Assembly: GCA_003635265.1 (NCBI GenBank)
Contig: PYIZ01000048.1
Coordinates: 248,001 to 312,000 of the forward strand
Origin: Candidatus Poribacteria bacterium
GTDB lineage: Bacteria; Poribacteria; WGA-4E; PCPOR2b
Reading direction: 5' to 3'
DNA length: 64,000 bases
The position numbers were made by a program, and so were the translations under genes. A model generated the notes under the pieces. That model saw nothing but the letters and a program-made list of their open reading frames with translations, had not been told where the DNA came from and searched no databases. Of this stretch, positions 4,366 through 10,713 are shown in pieces; the stretch's first letter is position 1, and each line of letters begins with the position of its first letter.

Positions 4366-5295
4366 ATGGACATCAGCTTTAGTACGGGTGCCGGTGCGGG
4401 TGCATGGAGCCTCGAAGAGTGTGCCGAATGGGCAAAAGCAAACGATTTTGATGCGATTCGCCCTAATGCTAGTGGCACGTTTGATCCTGATCATATCCTG
4501 CAAGCAGGCGGTGATGAGATTAACGAAACCTTGCGATCGCACAATATCTATCTTGCCGCGCTAAGTGCGCACAACAATTTACTTGACGACGATCTCGAAA
4601 CACGCGAAGCCGCTCGTGAAAACCTCAAACGAGCGATTGAGGCGACAAGCCTCCTCGGTGCGCCGGTCCTCGTGACCTATGCGGGCAGCCCTGTCAGTTG
4701 GCATTTTTACGGACAATTTTCCTCAAACCCCGGCAATCCGGATGATAGATCAGTCGAGCTAGTAGGCAGGTTCAAAGAGATGTGGACGCCAGTTATCCGC
4801 TTTGCTGAGGAGAAGGGTGTGACAATTGCGCTTGATTGTGCGGTACGAATGGGCAACATCGCCTGTAATCCCGAGATGTGGGAACGCATTCTTGACGCGA
4901 TCCCCTCCGACAACCTAGGGTTATCTTGCGATCCCTCCCACTGGCTCTGGATGGGGATTTTGCCGGCAGAGGACGCTATCCGCATGTTTTCCAGCAAGTG
5001 GTACTATGCCGATGTGAAGGATTGTGAAGTCAGTCCACAGATGCGTTTCCGTCAAGGAATTATCGGAAACTGGTGGTGGCAATATCGCGTTCCCGGACGT
5101 GGACAATTGAATTGGGGAACAATCATCGGTGCACTGCTTGAGTCCGGATATGATTATGTCCTTTGTGTTGAAAATGAAGATCGAGGGATGCCGGGACTTG
5201 CCGGGTTCGCATTGGGTGGGCGCCATCTGCGTCAATTTCTGCCCCAGCGCGGGGAAGCCTACGCTCCAGCAACTCTCTGGAAGGTCAGAAACTAA
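4366..5295 (+). CDS. Sugar phosphate isomerase/epimerase-like TIM-barrel protein
   Basis: 309 residues of the xylose-isomerase-like TIM barrel superfamily (AP-endonuclease 2 fold). Candidate metal ligands occur in the usual order: ALDCAV near residue 165, CDPSHW near 187, ADVKD near 218 and VENED near 268. There is no signal peptide, so it is probably cytoplasmic. The ATG at 4366 is preceded by AGAAAGAGGCAAA. The family covers many keto-sugar and inosose isomerases and epimerases; the exact reaction is unknown. The gene stands apart from the carbohydrate genes at 32-52 kb. A stem-loop just downstream probably ends its transcript. Confidence 0.75.
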   Translation: MDISFSTGAGAGAWSLEECAEWAKANDFDAIRPNASGTFDPDHILQAGGDEINETLRSHNIYLAALSAHNNLLDDDLETREAARENLKRAIEATSLLGAPVLVTYAGSPVSWHFYGQFSSNPGNPDDRSVELVGRFKEMWTPVIRFAEEKGVTIALDCAVRMGNIACNPEMWERILDAIPSDNLGLSCDPSHWLWMGILPAEDAIRMFSSKWYYADVKDCEVSPQMRFRQGIIGNWWWQYRVPGRGQLNWGTIIGALLESGYDYVLCVENEDRGMPGLAGFALGGRHLRQFLPQRGEAYAPATLWKVRN

Positions 5296-6169: not shown

Positions 6170-6985
6170 TTGGATACAAAACTTCGAGTTGGTTTCATCG
6201 CTGTTGGCAATATGGGAGGTGCGATTGTCAGAGGCGTTGTACGTGATTTACTACCGCCCGATCAGGTTTGGATAACAGATGTCTATCGTCCCCTCGTTGA
6301 CCAACTATGTGAGGAGTTAGGGGTCAATAGTGCGGAAGACATCGCGCAATTGGTGGAAAATGTGGACTGTCTGTTATATGCAGCCAAGCCGAATAATGTG
6401 CCAGAAGTCTTCCCAGAGATTGCTGCCACTCTCCAATCTCCGTCCCAGTGGATTATATCCATTGCAGCAGGCGTCTCGACAACCCAATTAGAATCCTACT
6501 TTACCTCTCCGCCACCGCCAATTGTCCGCGTAATGCCAAATATCGCCGCGTCTGTGGGAGAAGCAATCTCCGCAATCACGGCGGGCACCACTGCCACGGC
6601 TGAACATCTCACTGTAACGGAAGAAATTTTCAACGCTGCGGGTAAGTCGTTGATCATGGAGGAGAGACACTTAAATGCTGTTACTGGTTTGAGTGGCAGC
6701 GGCCCCGCGTTCGTGTTCCTTTTCATTGAAGCCTTCGCTGATGCAGGAGTGCAGGTCGGCCTGACTCGTCCCGACGCATATCAACTTGCCGTACAAACCG
6801 TGCTCGGAGCGTGCAGGATGCTTGAGGAAACCGGCGAACATCCAGCGGTCCTAAAAAACCGAGTAACAACACCAGGGGGAACAACGGCAGCGGGATTATA
6901 TGCGTTGGAGGATGGACGGCTGCGCGCGGTTATCGCTGATGCTGTGAGTGCTGCTACAAAACGCTCCGAAGAACTTGCAAATTGA
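6170..6985 (+). CDS. proC: Pyrroline-5-carboxylate reductase
   Basis: Last step of proline synthesis: NAD(P)H-dependent reduction of pyrroline-5-carboxylate. The N-terminal dinucleotide-binding loop reads GNMGGAIVRGV near residue 13. The C-terminal dimerisation domain has LSGSGPAFVFLFIEA and TTPGGTTAAGL. Length 271 is typical. The start is TTG at 6170, with AGGAG 9-13 bases upstream, only 21 bp after yggS. The gene runs directly into yggT. Confidence 0.95.
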   Translation: MDTKLRVGFIAVGNMGGAIVRGVVRDLLPPDQVWITDVYRPLVDQLCEELGVNSAEDIAQLVENVDCLLYAAKPNNVPEVFPEIAATLQSPSQWIISIAAGVSTTQLESYFTSPPPPIVRVMPNIAASVGEAISAITAGTTATAEHLTVTEEIFNAAGKSLIMEERHLNAVTGLSGSGPAFVFLFIEAFADAGVQVGLTRPDAYQLAVQTVLGACRMLEETGEHPAVLKNRVTTPGGTTAAGLYALEDGRLRAVIADAVSAATKRSEELAN

Positions 6986-7009
6986 GTGAGATTGGAAGGG
7001 CCCTCAACT

Positions 7010-7285
7010 ATGGAAATGTTGATACCTCTCATGATTGAAGTGATTGGGATTTACTCAATCATCGTCTTTGCTAACGTTATATTATCTTGGGTTGTGAATT
7101 TATCTGGCAATATGGCAGTAAGACAAATTTATTGGCTGACAAATCGACTTGTTGACCCAGCGCTAGATCCCATTCGCCGTGTGCTTCGTCCCATGACAGG
7201 GGGTTTGGGAATTGACATCTCACCACTTATTTTATTAATTTTTTTGCAAATACTGCGGAGGATGTTGATTCAAACCCTTTATTAA
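7010..7285 (+). CDS. yggT: YggT-family membrane protein
   Basis: About 91 residues with two hydrophobic helices flanking the family's SWVV segment, and a second half around DPALDPIRRVLRPMTGGLGIDISPLI, typical of YggT. The role is linked to membrane or osmotic functions but poorly defined. The frame is open from a GTG at 6986 directly after the proC stop, but ATG at 7010 is preferred because GGAAGG lies 11 bases upstream. Its place between proC and an ileS-like gene is the classic gene order. Confidence 0.85.
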   Translation: MEMLIPLMIEVIGIYSIIVFANVILSWVVNLSGNMAVRQIYWLTNRLVDPALDPIRRVLRPMTGGLGIDISPLILLIFLQILRRMLIQTLY

Positions 7286-7341: not shown

Positions 7342-9708
7342 TTGAAAATGCTGACCGAAGAAAAAATCCTGAAATTATGGGATGAAATTGATGTCTATGC
7401 CCAACTAACCCAACAGGCGAAATCGACACCCTACATCCTTCGCGAAATGCCTGCAGCTACCCATCATTTGAAATTAGATATGCTCACAGGTAAGATCTGC
7501 CAAGACATTTTTCTTAAGTCTAACATGATGCAAGGGATAGGTGTAGAGTATGTGCCGCATTGGGATTATTATACTCCTGCTGTTGAAACGAAGGCGTTAA
7601 ATCGGGAGTATAAGGATGGCACCTTTGATGCAATTCGATTTCGCCGGCAATGTCGACGTGAGTTCCAGCGTGAGGTTGACCAACAGCAAAACCAACTGCG
7701 AGCAGTTGGGATTTTTGGAGATTGGAAGAAGGGCAAAACTCTGGATTCACGCGATGAAGCGAAAATCATCAACGCTTTCAGCGCGCTGCAGGAGTTAGGG
7801 TATTTGAATAAGGATCAAAAATTGGGAGCTTGGTGTCCAAAATGTAATACTATACTAGACGTGGATGAGATGAAAAATCACCCATCTCCGGTGTATTCTG
7901 GGTACGTCAAATTTCCTGTCAGCATCGGTTTGGAAGAGTTTGGCGAGGACGTTTACCTATTAGCGTGGCTTCAAGATTTATGGTATCTTGCTGGAAGCAT
8001 TGCTATTGGGGTGGAGGAAAATAGCGAATATTGGCTTGTTGAGCTAGATGGTGAAATCCTGCTCCTTACTGAGGACAATCTCTCAGCTTGCTTTCCACCG
8101 GATCAGCAGGCAGATATAAATCGATTGCAAACCTGCCCGGTTGAGGTCCTGACGGATTGCTTTTGCGCCCATCCGTTTCTAGGCAAAGACCTTCAGGTAG
8201 TTGTTATTCCGGATATTTCTGAGCAAGGCGAGATGTTAGACGAAGGGACAAGGCATAAACCAACGACCGGAGTTAGGCCACTCACCCCGGGGCACCGTCC
8301 CGATGATTATCAAATTGCTCAAACTCTACAACTTCCGATTACATCGGTTATTGATGATGCTGGACGTTTAACGGAGGATTCTGAACAGTTTTGTGGTCTT
8401 GAAGTTTCCGACGCCGGAAAATTCATTGCTTTTGAATTAGAAAAACGGGGTTATCTAATATCAGCGGGAAATGAGGAGATGAATCAACCTCATTGTTGGC
8501 GGTGTGATATACCAGTCTTGTTTCGTTCAATTCAACAATGGATTTTTTCCTTGGACAATAACCAACTGCGTGATCGTGTGCTTTGTTCAGATGAACATTT
8601 AGCATACTATAGTCCTAAAGATAGAGATTGGATACAAAAAACGATTCAAAAACTCTCACCTCCACCGGTTTCACGCCACAGAGGTTGGGGTACTCCAATT
8701 CCGATTTTTCAGTGCCAAAAATGTGGAAGAGAACTTTCTGACACCCGGATTATCAAAGCCATCCGTACTCTGGTAAGTCGTCGCGGCGCCGACAGTTGGT
8801 TTAAGCTGAATGCTGAGGATTTGTTGCCTCCGAATACCCTATGTCCTAACTGTGATGGAAAGGAGTTTCGGAAAGAATTCACAACCCTTGATGGACGCTT
8901 CGCGATGCTTCTCAATGCAATTAACAATTTTGGAACCAAGGGAAATACGGTGAATCCGGTTAATGTTTATTTCTTTTACCCGAATCAATTTAATAAATGG
9001 TTCGCTCAGTTCGTTTTGACTTCAATTGCTATCTCCGATGTGGAGCCGTTGAATGTGGAGTTGACAGGAGATCATTCAAATGTCCAATCGGTTGATGTTG
9101 ACCAAAGTTGGACGGAGGAATATCCAAAGGATGTGCTGCGCTTGTGCTGCATCCAACCTAATGTGGACCCGTCATCAATCGAGACGCATCTCCAACAGTG
9201 TCAGCAAGAATACAGTGCCCTCCAAGAACTCTGTGCCGTGATATTAAGTCATCTCGAAGATTTTACCCTTGATCCAGATTCCCCCCAACTAGAACTGATA
9301 ATTCCGGATACACAGGAGTTATCCACTACTGCTAGCGTACTGCAATCTGTAGATTCCGCCTACCAGCGACGCGACTATTATCAAGCGTGGTGTCTATTAA
9401 GAGACTTCTGCCAATCAGATCTTCAGCAGTTTGTTGATAATTGGTTCAAGGCATCAGAAACAGTACCAGAAAAACAACCTTACCAAGCGATGCTATTAGA
9501 GATTTTGTATGTCTTGGTACAGCGGTTTGCACCAATCATTCCCTTTTTCTCCGAACAAACCTACGCTTCAATCCAAATGTGGGTAGATACGACTTCGCTT
9601 TCGGAGGACACCCCAAACCAAGATGAATCTGAATTGTCGAGCATTTTTTTGAAAAATTGGATTTCCCATGCTGATTTTCCCTGCTTTGCCGGTGCAGATA
9701 TGCTCTAA
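7342..9708 (+). CDS. Isoleucyl-tRNA synthetase-like protein lacking catalytic motifs (pseudo-IleRS)
   Basis: 788 codons without interruption, aligning by eye to isoleucyl-tRNA synthetase over most of its length (usually above 900 residues). Recognisable parts are the N-terminal PYVPxWD-like segment (YVPHWD near residue 74), WCPKC near 169, PHCWRCDIPVLFRS near 385, SRHRGWGTPIPIF near 440 and the zinc-like CPNCDGKEFRKE near 510. The signature residues are gone. The HIGH position reads HHLKLD, HGLPxE reads YYTPAVE, the DVWFDSG block reads LDGRFAML, and the KMSKS region reads VELTGDHSNV. The editing-domain TTTPWTLPAN is also lost. The gene sits exactly where ileS sits in the yggT-ileS-lspA order and is intact, so it is probably made as a non-catalytic protein. 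A functional ileS must lie elsewhere. Its role is unknown. Confidence 0.8.
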   Translation: MKMLTEEKILKLWDEIDVYAQLTQQAKSTPYILREMPAATHHLKLDMLTGKICQDIFLKSNMMQGIGVEYVPHWDYYTPAVETKALNREYKDGTFDAIRFRRQCRREFQREVDQQQNQLRAVGIFGDWKKGKTLDSRDEAKIINAFSALQELGYLNKDQKLGAWCPKCNTILDVDEMKNHPSPVYSGYVKFPVSIGLEEFGEDVYLLAWLQDLWYLAGSIAIGVEENSEYWLVELDGEILLLTEDNLSACFPPDQQADINRLQTCPVEVLTDCFCAHPFLGKDLQVVVIPDISEQGEMLDEGTRHKPTTGVRPLTPGHRPDDYQIAQTLQLPITSVIDDAGRLTEDSEQFCGLEVSDAGKFIAFELEKRGYLISAGNEEMNQPHCWRCDIPVLFRSIQQWIFSLDNNQLRDRVLCSDEHLAYYSPKDRDWIQKTIQKLSPPPVSRHRGWGTPIPIFQCQKCGRELSDTRIIKAIRTLVSRRGADSWFKLNAEDLLPPNTLCPNCDGKEFRKEFTTLDGRFAMLLNAINNFGTKGNTVNPVNVYFFYPNQFNKWFAQFVLTSIAISDVEPLNVELTGDHSNVQSVDVDQSWTEEYPKDVLRLCCIQPNVDPSSIETHLQQCQQEYSALQELCAVILSHLEDFTLDPDSPQLELIIPDTQELSTTASVLQSVDSAYQRRDYYQAWCLLRDFCQSDLQQFVDNWFKASETVPEKQPYQAMLLEILYVLVQRFAPIIPFFSEQTYASIQMWVDTTSLSEDTPNQDESELSSIFLKNWISHADFPCFAGADML

Positions 9709-9737: not shown

Positions 9738-10238
9738 ATGCGGAGAAACATACTGAAATTGATTTTACCTATATTTGGTGTTGCATTGCCTGTGTTATTA
9801 GTGGATCAATTCACTAAGTGGTTGATTCAACAAAATATTCCGCATCATGGTCAACATGTGATAATTCAGGGCATATTAAACCTACGCCATGACACGAATG
9901 ACGGTGCTGCATTTGGCCTGATGCCGGGACAAAGCGTACTGCTAGTTATTATCTCAATTGTTGCGATTGGCTTCATTGCCTACTACTACAAACAATTCCG
10001 CGAGAGTTTGTGGATGAAGATTGCGCTCAGTTTTCTGCTCGGGGGTGCACTTGGTAACTTTATTGACCGTGTTCGCTTGGGGGAAGTCACAGATTTTATT
10101 CAATTTCGATTACCCGGTTTCTGGTGGCCCACTTTCAACGTTGCCGATGTCGCCGTTTGTATCGGTGCAGGGATGTTGATGATTTACCTATTTCAGCATC
10201 GAGGAGACTACGATGAAGCGAAACAGATCGAAAATTAG
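9738..10238 (+). CDS. lspA: Lipoprotein signal peptidase II
   Basis: Four-helix inner-membrane aspartyl protease that removes signal peptides from prolipoproteins. Motifs in order are VDQFTKWLI near residue 21, the NDGAAFG block near 53, GGALGNFIDRV near 101 carrying the first catalytic Asp, and FNVADVAVCIG near 132 carrying the second. Length 166 is normal. ATG at 9738 follows AGGAAAGGATATTCCC. It follows the IleRS-like gene in the standard order, and its 3' end overlaps the next gene by 26 bases. Confidence 0.95.
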   Translation: MRRNILKLILPIFGVALPVLLVDQFTKWLIQQNIPHHGQHVIIQGILNLRHDTNDGAAFGLMPGQSVLLVIISIVAIGFIAYYYKQFRESLWMKIALSFLLGGALGNFIDRVRLGEVTDFIQFRLPGFWWPTFNVADVAVCIGAGMLMIYLFQHRGDYDEAKQIEN

Positions 10239-10713
10239 GTTACTCATTGTTCTGATGTTAACCGTGATGGTTGCGACGAATGCTTTTGCCCAATTGGAGG
10301 AAAATCCGGAAGAAGAGGCATCGTCTGCCAGTCGGCAGGAAGAAGAGGTTTACCATGAAAGCACGTTACGCCGCTTTGAAATTATTACCATCATTGCGCT
10401 GCCGTTTACAGCGATTCATAGCTATGTAGGTGTACGGGGTATCCGAATGATTCAGCAAAACGAGTTCGCGCCAGAACTCTCTCCGACGGATTTCAGAATT
10501 ATCGGGGCATCTGCGGTGTCGCTTGCTCTCCTTATCGGTTTCTGGGATTGGTTGCATACACATGACAAAAATCCTTCAGAAGAACTAATTCCTACTTCGC
10601 CGCAACCTAGAGTCCCTCCACGACGAGCCCCAATCCGAGGTGTTGGACAGAACGATTGGAACACCGATGAGCCGCAGGGGTTTGTTGTGCCGCTCGCTCA
10701 CATTCGGTTTTGA
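10213..10713 (+). CDS. Hypothetical protein with signal peptide and two membrane helices
   Basis: 166 residues, no family recognised. An N-terminal signal peptide ends at NAFAQ near residue 26. It is followed by a Glu/Ser-rich stretch, two hydrophobic segments (about residues 55-75 and 95-115, the latter ending GFWDWLHTH), and a Pro/Arg-rich tail. The start overlaps the lspA end by 26 bases and is preceded by GAGGAG, indicating translational coupling. A cell-envelope protein is the most that can be said. Confidence 0.65.
   Translation: MKRNRSKIRLLIVLMLTVMVATNAFAQLEENPEEEASSASRQEEEVYHESTLRRFEIITIIALPFTAIHSYVGVRGIRMIQQNEFAPELSPTDFRIIGASAVSLALLIGFWDWLHTHDKNPSEELIPTSPQPRVPPRRAPIRGVGQNDWNTDEPQGFVVPLAHIRF

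Follow-up and report, generated by a model that had tools for sequence, protein, structure and literature searches.

The isoleucyl-tRNA synthetase (IleRS) gene at the old ileS site of Candidatus Poribacteria encodes a protein without the catalytic motifs of its family, and very probably this former synthetase now performs a different, non-catalytic function. The reading we favor, at a probability of roughly 0.6, is that the original type 1 enzyme (IleRS1) of the phylum was displaced, is catalytically dead and has been kept at its locus for a regulatory or scaffold role that involves no catalysis. That a non-catalytic function has been retained is surer than the mechanism by which it operates. 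The gene was identified in a window of 64,000 nucleotides, the whole stretch of DNA that was analyzed (GCA_003635265.1, contig PYIZ01000048.1, positions 248,001 to 312,000).

Within the window, the gene lies between yggT and lspA, in the place of ileS as the initial annotation had proposed, and both neighbors were confirmed by profile matches. The gene order is:

6170 to 6985, plus strand: open reading frame that we take from its sequence to be proC, an upstream neighbor
6986 to 7285, plus strand: yggT (PF02325), the upstream neighbor of pseudo-ileS
7348 to 9708, plus strand: pseudo-ileS, 786 amino acids from ATG 7348, with an alternative start at TTG 7342
9738 to 10238, plus strand: lspA (TIGR00077), the downstream neighbor of pseudo-ileS

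The frame from 7342 to 9708 is open over 788 codons, and ATG 7348 appears to be the likelier start because MLTEEK or MLTDEK is common to all six genomes of the genus. Residues 5–754 of the protein match TIGR00392 (ileS) with 281.1 bits, below the cut-off of 621.4, and four other dead copies score 155–297 bits against the same cut-off. Profile searches also matched the window protein to PF00133 and PF08264 (Anticodon_1, 33.9 bits). A T-box or other RNA leader at this site was rejected, as Rfam returned no match at the gathering threshold between window positions 5000 and 11000. At 10213–10713 the window contains a 166-residue open reading frame with hydrophobic stretches, which is found 3' of lspA in most loci read.

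Motif positions in the window protein were read from an alignment with E. coli IleRS:

7471 to 7482, plus strand: HIGH position, reads K44-L-D-M47 after a one-residue deletion; dead, with no histidine at the site
7570 to 7587, plus strand: HGLPxE position (HGLPIE in E. coli), reads YTPAVE; the Glu alone is kept
7834 to 7845, plus strand: cysteines of putative zinc site 1, first half, C165-x2-C168, retained; C165 is invariant in 19 aligned copies
7969 to 7986, plus strand: editing-domain TTTPWT position, reads LQDLWY; dead
8287 to 8310, plus strand: second editing element, PGHRPDDY; the Asp (E. coli D342) is present here and lost in most relatives
8494 to 8505, plus strand: cysteines of putative zinc site 1, second half, C385-x2-C388, retained
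8713 to 8724, plus strand: cysteines of the putative zinc ribbon, first half, C458-x2-C461, invariant
8842 to 8853, plus strand: cysteines of the putative zinc ribbon, second half, C501-x2-C504, invariant
8890 to 8910, plus strand: DVWFDSG position, reads DGRFAML (TLDVWFDSG to TLDGRFAML); dead
9076 to 9081, plus strand: KMSKS loop, mostly deleted, with its junction at S579/N580; KMSK is absent (TGDHS----NVQS)
9211 to 9246, plus strand: IleRS1 anticodon-domain helix YRxIRNTxRFLL, reads YSALQELCAVIL; the basic residues are lost

The alignment agrees with the original observation that HIGH, HGLPxE, DVWFDSG and KMSKS have been lost from an IleRS-like protein. The accompanying claim that the editing motif is gone holds for TTTPWT but not fully for the second element, which in this copy is changed yet partly kept.

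The same losses are seen across families, and sequencing error or decay in a single genome was rejected on these grounds. Motif columns were read in 38 copies (30 plus 8 further), with which a set of 54 copies from named Poribacteria genomes partly overlaps. None of the 38 contains an intact catalytic motif at these columns, with L049, which begins after the HIGH region, read at the others only. HIGH, as either HXGH or GXHH, is absent from 30/30 copies and from 7 of the 8 further ones, the eighth being L049. Every copy read at these columns has lost the same motifs, which is far from a chance outcome. The strict patterns HxGH, GxHH, KMSKS, MHKS, WFDSG, HGxPxE and TTTPWT each matched 0 of the 54 copies from named genomes. 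Looser patterns gave a few stray matches in dead copies (e.g. HxG[HT]), all at other positions, and in controls they matched 14–15 of 15 IleRS1 and 19/19 functional Poribacteria IleRS. A gene piece from G059, which belongs to another class of the phylum, is dead at both DVWFDSG and KMSKS.

Residue retention was then scored in 62 dead copies at 187 columns that are conserved in 14 IleRS1. H65, G67, H98, G99, P101, T241–T243 and M603 were kept in none of the 62, and P57, P93, W187, C188 and C406 in all of them. At KMSKS, M603 is kept in 0% and S604 in 2% of copies, and 45% have a Lys in the K605 column; persisting IleRS1 residues include E103 (97%) and K72 (85%). By sequence comparison, the cysteines of both putative core zinc sites are retained across copies, and WCxxC is present in 28/30, 8/8 and 52/54 copies of the three sets.

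An unseen ileS had been supposed to do the charging. A search of the window genome (5.3 Mb, 53 contigs, 88% complete) located a complete, separate IleRS of 1133 amino acids on contig C44 (G000:C44:23504-26242; L002 886-4284), which scores 695–696 bits, above the TIGR00392 cut-off, and would be the charging enzyme judging by its sequence. The possibility that this genome lacks a second IleRS was rejected on the basis of this copy. Across the phylum, an IleRS over the cut-off is present in 74 of 84 genomes and was not found in ten (G005, G007, G008, G050, G058, G063, G067, G069, G070 and G080). Three of these (G008, G069 and G067) contain IleRS pieces, and the other seven are assumed to reflect assembly gaps. 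GVHH occupies the HIGH site in 18 of 19 aligned functional Poribacteria IleRS, and GXHH alone is catalytic in IleRS2 according to PMC10485003. Four altered signatures occur together in the functional IleRS of G000, G001 and G006 (f1) and of G009 and G012 (f2), at L002 and L076-L079: GVHH for HIGH, QGLWxE for HGLPxE, WLDAG for WFDSG and MHKS for KMSKS. MHKS is absent from the main text of PMC10485003. Frame L047 of G060, considered as a further pseudo-ileS copy, was rejected since it is the IleRS2 of that genome.

The window gene descends from a type 1 IleRS (ileS1) and stands at the ancestral operon site. In a tree of 45 rows (17 dead, 10 IleRS1 and 18 functional Poribacteria IleRS), built by a quick search with no bootstrap and with three dead rows as very long branches, the 17 dead copies form one clade (SH-aLRT 100) that the 10 IleRS1 adjoin (96). 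Both are joined at 100, and this group is apart from the 18 functional Poribacteria IleRS. An Omnitrophota genome has the order yggS-proC-yggT-ileS-lspA, with a motif-intact IleRS1 in the same slot. From the tree grouping and this gene order we infer, as the simplest history, that ileS1 resided in the operon, ileS2 arrived, catalysis was lost before the phylum diversified and the protein was kept.

The IleRS fold appears to be retained in the dead protein, as predicted by an AlphaFold2 model of the window copy (38 sequences; pLDDT 82.5, pTM 0.80). Foldseek ranks 1–18 with this model were all IleRS, and the best solved match was Priestia megaterium IleRS1 (E 2.1e-42, TM 0.69 by query length). 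Copies of family f3 (L027-L046) carry a basic, Lys/Arg/Ser/Thr-rich N-terminal extension that the window copy does not have; an f3 copy (34% identity) was modeled with pLDDT 79.2 and pTM 0.78, its basic N-terminus (residues 1–26) at low confidence.

Dead copies are under purifying selection. The suggestion that the protein is selected was examined by measuring dN/dS (omega) across relatives, and omega ranged from 0.08 to 0.38 (median 0.17) in 103 pairs with dS of 0.05 to 1, drawn from 56 copies; random decay in relatives was not observed. Within the window genus, omega for pseudo-ileS is 0.18–0.23 (dS 0.17–1.0, 7 of 15 pairs), as compared to 0.07–0.09 for proC, 0.09–0.18 for lspA, 0.05–0.29 for yggT, 0.15–0.36 for the 166-residue frame and, from one pair, 0.058 for the functional IleRS. 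Pseudogene signs (stops, frameshifts or omega near 1) were not seen in the copies examined. There are no stops inside the matched stretches of the gene in the listed genomes, and in G011 and G014 the profile match overruns the gene's own stop codon at the C-terminal end. Constraint is nonetheless moderate, since in 65 of 66 genome pairs the functional IleRS is better conserved than the dead protein (in pairs that include G000 or G001, the functional enzymes compared are of two IleRS types). Across families f3 and f4, identity is 29–30% for the dead protein and 66–67% for the functional IleRS. For L050-L051 (G064-G065), omega is 0.079, and identity is 92% for the dead protein versus 90% for the functional enzyme. 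In 23 representatives, 51 conserved columns are common with IleRS1 and 22 are more strongly conserved than in IleRS1; 16 of these 22 differ from the commonest IleRS1 residue (e.g. V68, R137, G196, E198, R475, P734 and F769).

The gene is present as an open frame of 746–1011 residues in 74 of 84 Poribacteria genomes and as pieces in three more (G059, G060 and G062), G060 having it in two pieces (L165 and L191). The order proC-yggT-X-lspA, where X is the dead gene, was found in almost every locus read, the exceptions being L049-L052, where yggT was not detected, L038, where lspA was not, and pieces that are without one side. The G071 locus is cut at a contig edge, and lspA was not found in G058, G066 or G067. 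The dead protein is dispensable, as it is cleanly absent from 3/84 genomes (G006, G009 and G012), in which yggT is followed by lspA with no gene frame between; no tblastn match to the gene better than E 0.35 was found in the 10.5 kb read. At these loci (L162, L163 and L164), ∼180–540 bases are left between the yggT and lspA frames. Being in the operon does not by itself force the gene to be retained, since these three genomes dropped it and kept both neighbors. The same genomes speak against an obligatory partnership with YggT or LspA, a role that the initial annotation had raised. All three have an MHKS-type IleRS, but a link between gene loss and IleRS type was rejected, as G000 and G001 have this type together with the gene. 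The IleRS pieces of G008 and G069 match the MHKS-type IleRS at 63% and 79% identity, and the loss events are too few to use for this comparison. Outside Poribacteria, a narrow scan with two peptide patterns yielded 68 loci, 54 from Poribacteria and 14 from elsewhere. Among these 14, 11 have HxGH and 3 have HxGT at the HIGH position, and 13 contain KMSKS or AMSKS, the remaining locus being truncated.

Judging from the residues present, catalysis, editing and canonical tRNA recognition by the dead protein are unlikely. The C-terminal zinc domain cysteines (C901, C904, C921 and C924) were found in 0/62 dead copies, retention of basic residues in the YRxIRNTxRF helix is 0–8%, and because of these losses canonical tRNA-Ile binding, a further role suggested earlier, is disfavored. 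With these activities set aside and canonical tRNA-binding residues gone, a selected, folded platform is left, which points toward a protein-binding regulatory or scaffold role. A scaffold is argued for mainly from missing features. In this scheme, a type 2 IleRS presumably took over charging before the ileS1 motifs decayed. By sequence, ileS1 no longer encodes the residues needed to bind ATP and isoleucine, to edit or to recognize tRNA in the canonical way, and its product has been kept under the observed selection as a folded protein, as modeled, with its zinc cysteines. The Rossmann, editing and helical domains would now form a platform to which another macromolecule binds, much as HisZ serves HisG; speculatively, the first candidate partner would be the functional IleRS or another translation factor. 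A narrower version of this scheme is possible but tentative: a class Ia synthetase may have turned once, early in the phylum, into a pure regulator, a HisZ-like pseudoenzyme of class I origin that binds and tunes IleRS2 or another translation or amino-acid enzyme and that has its own signature of FP-x3-G-x-E-x2-G, a Cys4 ribbon and SIF.

Alternatively, the protein could be an RNA-handling factor that binds tRNA in a non-canonical way or binds the ribosome (as a chaperone, in sequestration or under stress) through its helical domain and the f3 basic extension. Its ancestor bound tRNA, the Anticodon_1 domain is still recognizable and the f3 extension is rich in Lys, Arg, Ser and Thr, but the C-terminal zinc cysteines and the helix basic residues are those lost above, and we consider such a role unlikely. 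The window copy also has no extension and is acidic (pI 4.70), which counts for little, given that the functional IleRS encoded in this genome is itself acidic (pI 4.87).

A new enzyme with a remodeled pocket, for example one built on a lineage-fixed REMP and QD[IV]FLK at the former HDGPP..HIGH, is improbable. QD[IV]FLK occurs in 54/54 and [RQ]E[MLI]P in 47/54 copies of named genomes, and when omega was calculated by region in two pairs, residues 1–100 were low in both (0.11 and 0.10), with 0.10 and 0.18 for residues 101–200 and 0.17 and 0.10 for residues 301–400. Seven charged residues (E198, D338, R447, R475, D597, R600 and E738) are among the 37 invariant in 19 diverse copies, but 22 of the 37 are Trp, Gly, Pro or Cys. 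Moreover, REMP is replaced in f5, f7 and f8 copies and in G016 (HEAP, HDIP or HDVP, QHVP, HEVP), and the ATP and isoleucine residues are gone.

It is very improbable that the gene is a slowly decaying relic held only by its operon position. While its conservation below the functional IleRS and its loss from three genomes fit such decay, omega exceeds 0.38 in none of the 103 pairs, the listed matched stretches are free of stops (aside from the G011 and G014 profile rows that overrun their own stop codon), yggT and lspA evidently do without the gene where it was cleanly deleted, and the core cysteines never vary although retention of catalytic residues is zero or close to it. Least credible of all is that the protein works on its own as an editing factor in trans on mischarged tRNA-Ile. 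Although His338 is kept in 98% of the 62 copies, the D342-equivalent Asp in 21% (the window copy included) and the whole protein, editing region included, is predicted to be IleRS-like, T241–T243 are kept in none, His333 in 11% and D342 is lost from most, together with the tRNA-binding parts.

HisZ derives from a class II synthetase. The regulatory or scaffold protein proposed here would resemble it as a bacterial synthetase paralogue without adenylation activity (here judged from motifs) that exists beside a working synthetase; unlike HisZ, whose partner is known, it is of class I and sits at the ancestral synthetase locus. HisZ is described in PMC9437257 as a HisRS paralogue that acts as the regulatory subunit of ATP phosphoribosyltransferase. 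Type 1 IleRS (TIGR00392; PDB 8c9e, 1qu2) shares with the window protein the modeled fold, domain order, operon position, ancestry and core cysteines, but the window protein is without HIGH, KMSKS, HGLPxE, DVWFDSG, the C-terminal zinc domain and the threonines of the editing site. SbzA, another IleRS relative beside a working IleRS and the closest IleRS-like protein with a different function found in the literature search, is an aminoacyl transferase in an antibiotic cluster that shows weak charging (PMC6331615 and PMC12945691). The window protein is not an SbzA because SbzA keeps HIGH and KMSKS sequences (PMC6331615), whereas the window protein has neither these nor an antibiotic cluster. IleRS2 with GXHH likewise has an altered HIGH motif, but these enzymes stay catalytic according to PMC10485003, and the window protein has no histidine there and no KMSKS. 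ThrRS T1/T2 is a precedent for a synthetase duplicate that functions through association with a further subunit (PMC4787780).

Synthetase paralogues without catalysis are known singly. In Poribacteria, a distant IleRS2 encoded elsewhere seems to have replaced the original copy of an essential enzyme, whose dead remnant was kept in place phylum-wide. A search of the open-access literature, by titles and abstract openings, found no report of an IleRS-derived pseudoenzyme or of Poribacteria synthetases; synthetase-derived non-catalytic proteins are known, but one derived from IleRS at its ancestral locus across a phylum is not, as far as found here. The system constitutes a natural experiment, with 74 copies of 746–1011 residues, deletions that arose naturally, and an outgroup whose gene order is the same and whose motifs are intact. 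It also carries a warning for annotation, as a gene matching IleRS at the Poribacteria ileS site is not the charging enzyme. Two genomes, G005 (95% complete) and G007 (91% complete), in which no functional IleRS was found, represent either an assembly gap or something odder, and G052 contains two full IleRS over the cut-off (G052:C84 and G052:C74, with 983 and 964 bits).
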